In this document: in pieces, positions 26,173 to 29,042 of the stretch
Numbering within the stretch: position 1 is the first letter of the stretch
Layout: each line of letters begins with the position of its first letter
Notes under the pieces: model-generated
The model's input: only the letters and a program-made list of their open reading frames with translations
Databases searched by the model: none
What the model was told of the DNA's origin: nothing
Source of the DNA: Burkholderiales bacterium
Lineage (GTDB): Bacteria; Pseudomonadota; Gammaproteobacteria; Burkholderiales; Casimicrobiaceae
Assembly (NCBI GenBank): GCA_016790165.1
Contig: JAEUPL010000007.1
Coordinates: forward strand, 1-64,000
Length of the DNA: 64,000 bases
Direction: 5' to 3'
Position numbers and translations under genes: made by a program

Positions 26173-27798
<1,626 letters not shown>

Positions 27799-28464
27799 AT
27801 GTCCAAACAGATTTCTGGCAGCGTGGGATTTGGCGGAGCCAATCGTGGCTCAGACGTGGCGGTAGTGCAGTACCTGCTCGATTGCGTCCCGGCGTCACGC
27901 GGCGGCCCGACGCCCGAGCTCGCCATCGACGGCTTGTGCGGCCCCAAGACCACCGCCGCGATCCGCAATTTCCAGCGCGCGAGTGGTTGCCCGCAGGACG
28001 GGCGGATTGACCCCGGCGGCCCCACCTTTCGCGCGCTCTCCGCGTATGACCCGTACCCCAACCGAAACCTGCCGCCGCTCGGCGCTGGGAACTCCAAGGG
28101 CGGCGGCAAGGGCGTGCACCCGCCGGGTGGCGGTGGCAAGGGTGGCTTCGGCCCAGGGGGCAAAACCGGCTTCGGCGGTGGCGGCGACGACTACGGCGCC
28201 TATGGCAAAGATGGATTCGGCAAGTCGTCCGGCTTCGGCCCCGGTGGCGGAGCTCCCTTCGGGAAGACGGGCTTTGGCGGCGGCGGAAAGAGCGACTTTG
28301 GTGGCTTTGGCGGCGGCAAGAGTGATTTTGGTGGTGGCGGCAAAAGCGGCTTTGGCAAATCGTCCGGATTCGGCACGGGCGGCGGTGACCCGTTCGGCAA
28401 GGGCGGAATGGGTGGCTCGGGCGGCGGCTTCGGCAAAGGCGGCGGCGGCAAGTCGGGATGGTAG
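27799..28464 (+). CDS. Peptidoglycan-binding-domain protein with Gly/Lys tail
   Basis: 221 residues. Residues about 5-82 form a PG_binding_1-like domain (GSDVAVVQYLLDC, IDGLCGPKTTAAIRNFQR, DGRIDPGGPTFRAL). From about 95 to the end it is a glycine-rich tail holding 14 lysines (100, 104, 114, 122, 137, 142, 156, 164, 174, 182, 187, 201, 213, 218) and no arginine. Thirteen of the lysines follow glycine, often in FGKSSGFG or GGGKSDFG units. No signal peptide is visible. The last seven bases overlap the SET-domain gene. The tail is an obvious candidate substrate for that lysine methyltransferase, which is inference. Confidence 0.8.
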   Translation: MSKQISGSVGFGGANRGSDVAVVQYLLDCVPASRGGPTPELAIDGLCGPKTTAAIRNFQRASGCPQDGRIDPGGPTFRALSAYDPYPNRNLPPLGAGNSKGGGKGVHPPGGGGKGGFGPGGKTGFGGGGDDYGAYGKDGFGKSSGFGPGGGAPFGKTGFGGGGKSDFGGFGGGKSDFGGGGKSGFGKSSGFGTGGGDPFGKGGMGGSGGGFGKGGGGKSGW

Positions 28465-29042
28465 ATCAGACCGCCGACGCCGATGCGCTTGGGCTCGCCG
28501 AAGCGTTCAGCCACTTGCCGTACGACCCGAGCGAAGCACCGCCCTTTGTTCGCGAAGTGCTCTTCCCCGGCGGCCCGCAAGCCGTTGCGCGGGTGAATCC
28601 GCAGGCCACCCAGTTCGCCCTCGAAAGTCGTGCATCGCCGATCCATCGCTTCGGCATCTTCGCGCAGGAGCCCATTCCCTGCGGCGCGGAGGTGATCGAG
28701 TACACCGGCGAACGTATTTCGTACCGCGAAGCCGCGCGACGACGTGTGCGACCCCATCTCTACCTGTTCTGGATCACGCCGGGGCAACTGATCGACGGCG
28801 CCATCGGCGGCAGTGGCGCCGAGTTCATCAACCACAGTTGCGAGCCCAACCTGGTCACACACATCCGCGACGGACGGGTGTTCTTCGTCAGCGTGCGCGA
28901 CATCGCCGCGGGCGAGGAACTGCTGCTGGACTACAAGGTGCGCGGGGACATTGACCGCATTCCGTGCCATTGCGGCGCCGCCTCATGCCGCGGCTTTCTG
29001 AACATCGATGAAGTGGATGTCGACGGCGACAAGGGGCCGTAG
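28458..29042 (+). CDS. SET-domain protein lysine methyltransferase
   Basis: 194 residues with a complete SET domain. SAM-binding start RASPIHRFGIFAQEPI (about 58-73), EYTGERIS (81-88), the pseudoknot motif FINHSCEPN (123-131), ELLLDYK with the catalytic tyrosine (154-160), and a post-SET cysteine cluster CHCGAASCRGFLN (170-182) with NHSC supplying the fourth zinc ligand. SET enzymes methylate protein lysines using SAM. Its start lies inside the last codons of the Gly/Lys-tailed gene, implying tight co-translation and a functional link. No secretion signal is visible, so it should act in the cytoplasm. Confidence 0.88.
   Translation: MVDQTADADALGLAEAFSHLPYDPSEAPPFVREVLFPGGPQAVARVNPQATQFALESRASPIHRFGIFAQEPIPCGAEVIEYTGERISYREAARRRVRPHLYLFWITPGQLIDGAIGGSGAEFINHSCEPNLVTHIRDGRVFFVSVRDIAAGEELLLDYKVRGDIDRIPCHCGAASCRGFLNIDEVDVDGDKGP

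Follow-up and report, generated by a model that had tools for sequence, protein, structure and literature searches.

SET-domain lysine methyltransferases of the MLL/KMT2 type work with the WRAD partners. In prokaryotes, the chlamydial histone-like proteins Hc1 and Hc2 are SET substrates, and an archaeal SET protein is said to methylate MC1-alpha. NUE is described as a chlamydial SET enzyme with histone-like substrates (PMC2904774), a review of bacterial SET proteins tabulates host-histone targets (PMC3980110), and methylation of flagellin by FliB, a [4Fe-4S] enzyme (PMC8598068), is reported to raise hydrophobicity and adhesion (PMC8598068, PMC7181671). The characterized bacterial SET enzymes in these papers act on host chromatin. 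We have studied a stretch of 64,000 nucleotides (nt) from a Burkholderiales bacterium (GenBank assembly GCA_016790165.1, contig JAEUPL010000007.1, positions 1 to 64,000), which we call the window. In it the gene for a peptidoglycan (PG)-binding-domain protein with a tail rich in lysine (Lys, K) overlaps the gene for a SET-domain enzyme. The pair recurs in distant bacteria, and its two genes probably form a module of their own: the SET enzyme would bind to the PG-binding domain and transfer methyl groups to the lysines of the tail.

The features of the pair are as follows (ORF, open reading frame; Arg or R, arginine).

27799..28464, + strand: gene for the PG-binding-domain protein with the Lys-studded tail, 221 amino acids (aa); from the ORF and Pfam.
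27799..28068, + strand: PG_binding_1-like N-terminal domain, residues 1-90, of a special subfamily with VQYLL(N/D)CVP; from Pfam and a 17-member alignment.
28069..28461, + strand: low-complexity tail with 14 Lys and 0 Arg past residue 90; from the residue count, with low AlphaFold confidence, as expected for disorder.
28438..28461, + strand: C-terminal GGGGKSGW of the tail; from comparison of tail C-termini.
28458..29042, + strand: gene for the SET-domain lysine methyltransferase, 194 aa; from the ORF, Pfam and structure matches.
28539..28577, + strand: N-terminal segment PPFVREVLFPGGP, SET residues 28-40, with the FVREV motif, a proposed docking segment; from comparison of SET proteins.
28650..28937, + strand: SET catalytic domain with NHSCEPN and GEELLLDY, Leu preceding DY; from Pfam and motif reading.
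28965..28988, + strand: post-SET cysteines C-x-C-x4-C, then RG; from motif reading.
27784..27790, + strand: GAAAGGA, possibly a ribosome binding site before the PG-binding gene; read by eye.

The ORF coordinates confirm that the stop codon of the PG-binding gene lies inside the start of the SET gene: the SET ATG is at 28458 and the TAG of the PG-binding gene ends at 28464, an overlap of 7 nt. The PG-binding protein matches PF01471 at residues 17-72 (E 1.1e-7, 32.3 bits vs a cut-off of 23). This is its only Pfam match, and no histone-like DNA-binding family was found. No signal peptide is visible by eye at its start (MSKQISGSVGFGG...). The AlphaFold model is poor overall, with a mean predicted local distance difference test (pLDDT) score of 47.6 and values below 50 over most of residues 95-221. 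Beside the pair, the gene at 26173-27486 reads by eye as a seryl-tRNA synthetase.

Counted from residue 91 on, the tail contains 14 Lys and no Arg, and Gly stands before all but one of these Lys, exactly as the original prediction had it; one Arg stands directly before the tail, at residue 89. The Lys:Arg ratio of the tail (14 K/0 R) differs clearly from that of the PG-binding domain and SET protein taken together (4 K/22 R; Fisher p = 1.3e-7). The Lys codons are mixed (8 AAG, 6 AAA), and therefore the units of the tail are not fresh DNA copies.

The same adjacent pair was sought in other genomes, and it was found in the genus of the window, in a Deltaproteobacterial MAG (metagenome-assembled genome) and in Acidobacteriota. 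In the large genome searches, 11 to 22 candidates per genome were scored. L and G numbers below are our handles for loci and genomes. A scan of one genome per species gave 39 loci of related SET genes, six of which have a PG-binding neighbor: L033 and L032 (MAGs with the same genes as genus genomes G003 and G008), L037 (the Deltaproteobacterial MAG, Myxococcota by NCBI rank), and L039, L040 and L041 (Acidobacteriota). At a seventh candidate locus, L070, the contig begins inside the SET gene. The pair recurs in Burkholderiales, one Deltaproteobacterial/Myxococcota MAG, Bryobacterales and Pyrinomonadaceae. In a 320-genome sample of the window's own order, SET matches beyond 1e-45 occur only in its own genome and G005. 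In the G102 class such matches occur in 4/162 genomes, FVREV and the pair being present in only one of the four, G102, and among 396 genomes of the G101 phylum PG-binding matches at E ≤ 1e-20 were found in G101 and two others (L104 and L103, both unlinked). Plasmids gave 8 records with PG-binding matches and 48 with SET matches; no pair was present in the two opened from each list, and the two PG-binding loci opened had no SET-like match. A scan of viral contigs with the PG-binding alignment gave one weak locus.

Altogether we read 22 distinct linked PG-binding genes. An FVREV-type SET gene lies next downstream on the same contig in 18, and the remaining four reach the contig end before a whole SET gene is visible, so that none of the 22 stands clearly apart from a SET gene. 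Homologous tails occurring widely without such a neighbor, which would have spoken against the original prediction, were not seen as far as the searches were run. A candidate SET start (ATG, GTG or TTG) lies ≤20 nt from the stop codon of the partner in 16 of 17 adjacent pairs, the exception being the frame-broken L183. At L181 (G730:C16:11800-15500), one SET gene is preceded by a tandem of PG-binding genes; each of the two encodes a Lys tail, and that of the first ends GGKQGW.

The 257 genomes in the order of G103 were searched with a profile of paired SET proteins, neighbors being read for the best 30 places, and separately with a PG-binding profile covering all 257. PG-binding matches at E ≤ 2.2e-32 were found in 14 genomes, at 17 places, before a wide gap to 1.3e-26, and SET matches fell into 13 places in 12 genomes at E < 1e-67, followed by 1.4e-61 and worse. 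The SET genes of G730 and G590, below this gap, were paired when read. The same 14 genomes therefore hold both the linked-type PG-binding protein and the FVREV-type SET, an identity with a chance probability of 2e-23 if both sets had been fixed beforehand; because two of the 14 were recognized by motif and neighbor, score alone gives 12 of 12 for the SET genomes and 12 of 14 for the genomes with the partner. The 36 loci of unlinked, weaker PG-binding relatives all gave neither a SET-like nor an FVREV match.

It might be supposed that the genes are neighbors without enzymatic relation, carried together by chance or for shared regulation. Short operons can indeed stay together, and by eye the flanking genes of the pair look different between lineages. 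Nevertheless we consider this improbable, given the same 14 of 257 genomes in one order, the recurrence in four lineages, and the loss of a SET motif along with the partner. That motif is an N-terminal FVREVxLP-like segment common to the paired SET proteins, which the unpaired relatives that were read do not have; the contig of L070 begins after the motif position, so its FVREV-negative reading is no test.

The link between motif and partner is seen within the genus. Among 17 genomes (the window's own and 16 others), a SET gene is present in eight and the partner in three (E ~1e-49). In all three the two genes are adjacent and the SET has FVREV, whereas the five SET proteins without a partner (L005-L009, L006 among them) also have no FVREV. 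In the tree these unpaired SETs fall inside the group of paired ones, and a topology that unites the paired SETs to the exclusion of all others is rejected (p-AU, the p value of the approximately unbiased test, 0.008). The simplest reading of this tree would be that the partner was lost together with the FVREV motif, twice, although the branch separating the two losses is not strongly supported (88/87; deeper branch supports are 78-88). By eye, the SET genes of L005-L009 stand after the same serS antisense region as the window pair, with no partner gene.

What is the nature of the tails in the other pairs? Lys-rich, Arg-poor tails (0 to 5 Arg; L039 has 28 Lys and 5 Arg) are present in 17/22 linked PG-binding genes. 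Compared by eye, their repeat units differ: FGKSSGFG/GGGKSDFG in the window, GYDPSGKQ (L003), GGKMAGGK (L037), GQKDGGFGWKTG (L185), AGSKQGYGP (L186), GFGHKGSFPQGFKD (L187), GGQAAKGGGY (L188), an Ala-Lys-rich stretch (L039), and others. The L039 tail looks H1-like by eye, yet it stands after a PG-binding domain. A Lys:Arg bias relative to the PG-binding domain plus SET was found in 14 of 16 tested pairs (p ≤ 1.5e-3 each; not in L040 and L041). A Lys stands among the five C-terminal residues in each of the 15 Lys-bearing tails compared, and in 14 this Lys follows Gly or a Gly-Ile/Gly-like context (GKSGW, GKSSW, IKSGW, GIKG, GGKI, GGKFG, IVGKV), L187 with SKG being the exception. In three family relatives of genus g6 (L012, L014 and L026) the SET proteins carry their own, very Lys-rich C-terminal tails fused in cis, of poly-K/D character, with 20-24 Lys per 50-residue window including the post-SET region.

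Comparison of closely related tails reveals strong purifying selection. Between L003 and L004 the proportion of nonsynonymous differences (pN) is 0.024 and of synonymous differences (pS) 0.369, with 11/12 Lys kept, and between L186 and L153 pN is 0.023 and pS 0.142, with 11/11 Lys kept. More distant pairs are looser (pN 0.16 and 0.15 vs pS 0.77 and 0.69); 13 Lys are conserved in these, while 5 or 2 have been replaced. As a control, about 705 crudely picked genes (the longest ORFs) gave 25 Gly-rich windows of 60 aa, of which 8 contain at least 5 Lys, all of them linked tails. Among the 17 Lys-poor windows, several probably do not belong to real genes, and two lie in over-long ORFs of linked partners L039 and L098, ahead of the domain; other linked tails, including that of the window, are absent from this control, displaced by longer overlapping ORFs or below threshold. 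Chance or composition as the source of the Lys tails was thus rejected by the Lys:Arg test, the selection test and this control.

A different target might be sought in the folded domain. The linked subfamily is marked by VQYLLNCVP, GGP and DPYP, and in the alignment of 17 linked members K3 is the sole Lys conserved in all, including those with Arg-rich tails, which is what would be expected if the SET enzyme methylated K3 and the tail were irrelevant. However, the same Lys is present in the unlinked L166 (MAKAISAS) and L167 (VPKSITAS), at loci without an FVREV-type SET, and the Lys tails are left unexplained. We regard methylation of K3 as very improbable.

The SET domain is complete, as predicted. 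The protein matches PF00856 at residues 65-160 (E 2.2e-19, 70.2 bits vs a curated cut-off of 22.4), and carries the catalytic NHSC and ELxxDY motifs, seen as NHSCEPN and GEELLLDY, together with the post-SET C-x-C-x4-C (the L004 SET has LLLDY). No other protein of its own genome, which is 92% complete, matches PF00856 at E ≤ 0.001. From family and motifs it is predicted to transfer methyl groups to lysine. SET is its sole Pfam family at E ≤ 0.001, FliB not being among its matches, and it scores 20.9 bits against the AnkI/LegAS4 Dot/Icm effector model NF043024, where 550 are required.

The closest solved structures are those of MLL/KMT2 H3K4 methyltransferases, 4z4p by sequence (E 2.3e-33) and 2w5z by fold (E 7.8e-14). 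The characterized bacterial SETs NUE and RomA act on host histones (PMC3980110). Both points would fit a secreted nucleomodulin that methylates the histones of protist hosts, with the partner as its export companion. From the source of the genomes and from one secretion gene, we judge this the least probable of the explanations considered here: the pair occurs in MAGs that are environmental by record title, and a sheath gene of the type VI secretion system is about as common without the pair. VipB was found in 18 of 19 genomes with the pair and 32 of 41 without it among 60 searched (p 0.15), a result that is compatible, but not informative. G103 and G625, whose linked partners all have Arg-rich tails, gave a divergent VipB match only, with no canonical one, while G101 (both kinds of tail) and G730 (Lys tails only) gave both; these are too few to count. 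The divergent VipB-like sheath genes of G101:C333, G103:C59 and G625:C94 match at E ~1e-29 to 1e-31.

The pair has been kept together across distant bacteria, and this suggests that the SET enzyme decorates the tail. At the level of sequence, the pairing, the gene order, the overlap or near-overlap, the covariation of motif and partner and the selection on the tails are established, and we strongly infer that the two proteins are writer and substrate. Since the genes overlap, both proteins would be made together from one message, translation coupling giving a stoichiometric product. The N-terminal FVREV segment of the SET protein may hold the folded PG-binding domain, and the MLL-like active site would then work through the lysines of the flexible tail in turn, methylating each. 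Because the PG-binding protein shows no signal peptide, modification would take place in the cytoplasm, and the modified protein might then leave the cell by a non-Sec route or at lysis.

Several observations weigh against this reading. The Lys tail is not universal, since in three of the 22 partners the tail is rich in Arg and shows no enrichment of Lys (L041, 1 K/19 R; L158, 1 K/21 R; L091, 4 K/17 R). Two more are intermediate: L040 (5 K/5 R), with one Lys per AHEGIKR unit and equally many Arg, and L089 (8 K/4 R), cut by the contig end. As a control, the unlinked PG-binding relatives proved less strong than expected; in 10 of 21 (of 23 loci asked) Lys exceeds Arg after the domain, up to 16 K/4 R, so a moderate Lys excess there is not special, though Arg is never nearly absent (4 or more in each of the ten) and no stretch is rich in Gly. 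Five members of the genus retain the SET core but have no partner, and other substrates are therefore possible. Distances of partners and SETs correlate (17 pairs, r 0.74, 0/5000 permutations; thinned to 13 pairs, r 0.54, 1/5000), which speaks for the module but can also reflect shared descent. Peptidoglycan binding is assigned to the partner by family name only, linked member L037 scoring under the PF01471 cut-off and L040, L087 and L091 giving no match. The putative docking segment FVREV has a pLDDT of only ~62-72 in the SET model, and the pair is known from MAGs or draft genomes only. The original proposal of a writer and its substrate is thus supported in part: the adjacency of the genes and the predominance of Lys tails speak for it, the Arg-rich and intermediate tails against it.

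The Arg-rich tails raise the possibility of a scaffold, in which the PG-binding protein targets or regulates the SET enzyme toward another substrate and the Lys tail provides charge or adhesion only. The pairing and FVREV are retained in pairs without Lys-enriched tails, and SET cores close to that of the window also live without a partner, as a scaffold would allow. Yet Lys is retained, and Arg almost absent, in repeat units that otherwise differ, and a need for charge would not by itself call for this. Moreover, the exceptional pairs also differ in their enzymes. The partners L041/L087, L158 and L091 go with the SETs L041, L119 and L070 (L119 and L070 have their partners elsewhere in the genome, on a different contig). 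All three SETs have Tyr before DY, with CSR, CSR and CWG in place of CRG. In contrast, where the tail is Lys-rich or has Lys in its repeats, the residue before DY is Leu, Ile, Val or Phe in 15 of 16 readable SETs (L115 has Tyr), and CRG is present in 16 of 16. By the F/Y-switch rule, Tyr at the switch position favors mono-methylation; Leu, Ile, Val or Phe suggests more than mono-methylation. The change of tail thus goes with a change of active site, as if substrate and enzyme had changed together. This is a lead and not a test, because the three exceptions are neighbors in the tree, arising early within the paired group, and Tyr is also found in 2 of 21 other, unpaired SETs (L179 and L180). 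On balance we think the scaffold unlikely, and prefer docking of the SET enzyme on the PG-binding domain with methylation of the tail.

What might such a tail do? Methylation leaves the charge of lysine in place, makes the residue more hydrophobic and protects it from Lys-directed peptidases. Speculatively, the PG-binding domain could anchor at the cell wall a tail that is permanently cationic, more hydrophobic and resistant to Lys proteases. We put forward, with considerable reserve, the idea of a transferable module making a low-complexity polymer tail of di- or trimethyl-lysine. A domain-anchored SET enzyme would act on Lys repeats that have been re-invented, giving a histone-tail-like, fixed-charge, protease-proof wall material. 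That this might guard against Lys-specific peptidases bearing the same type of PG-binding domain is speculation.

Some unlinked relatives may be recorded here. L074 (same genus) and L104 give weak matches, below cut-off, to Aspzincin M35, a Lys-specific metallopeptidase. The window's own genome has a second, unlinked PG-binding protein, L082 (G000:C37:73414-73653), with PF01471 as its only Pfam match; its C-terminal part resembles by eye that of relatives with an HELAHFVG-like zinc site (L074, L076, L077, L081, L103 and L104). In L166, from a genome of the G103 order, the PG-binding domain is followed by Peptidase_C70, with an AvrRpt2-like papain fold.

As far as our searches show, lysine methylation by SET enzymes is known and a dedicated partner with a PG-binding domain and Lys tail is undescribed. 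The original prediction knew of no bacterial system of this form, and no description of the pair was listed in searches of an open-access library on bacterial SETs, lysine methylation and neighbors of this kind; the words peptidoglycan, operon and Acidobacteria do not occur in the main text of the review of bacterial SET proteins (PMC3980110). If the proposed reading is true, bacteria would have a counterpart of histone-tail methylation on a protein that is not part of chromatin and may be associated with the wall. From sequence alone we can name the dedicated partner, the segment that probably recognizes it and the lysines that are candidate targets, and the question is therefore directly testable.

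Compared with known systems, the resemblance to a ribosomally synthesized and post-translationally modified peptide precursor with its enzyme is one of working only, with a conserved N-terminal domain, variable repeats and an adjacent enzyme. Other PG_binding_1 proteins share the type of N-terminal domain; in relatives from the same genus and from Acidobacteriota this domain is combined with peptidase regions (M15, C70 or weakly M35-like), and these proteins in contrast to the linked tails have 6-17% Gly after the domain with both Lys and Arg (21 read). In the FliB-flagellin system a dedicated methylase likewise marks many surface lysines of one bacterial protein, but FliB is no SET enzyme and flagellin no PG-binding protein. 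In chlamydial cpnSET/NUE and the archaeal SET/MC1-alpha pair, prokaryotic SETs act on Lys-rich proteins, as is proposed here; their substrates are DNA-binding proteins or host histones, whereas the partner in the present pair combines a PG-binding domain with repeat tails that vary, and is encoded in the same operon. Finally, the MLL/KMT2 enzymes share the SET core, NHSC, ELxxDY and the post-SET cysteines, while the enzyme of the window is a small, stand-alone bacterial protein, distinguished by its FVREV N-terminus and its dedicated neighbor gene.
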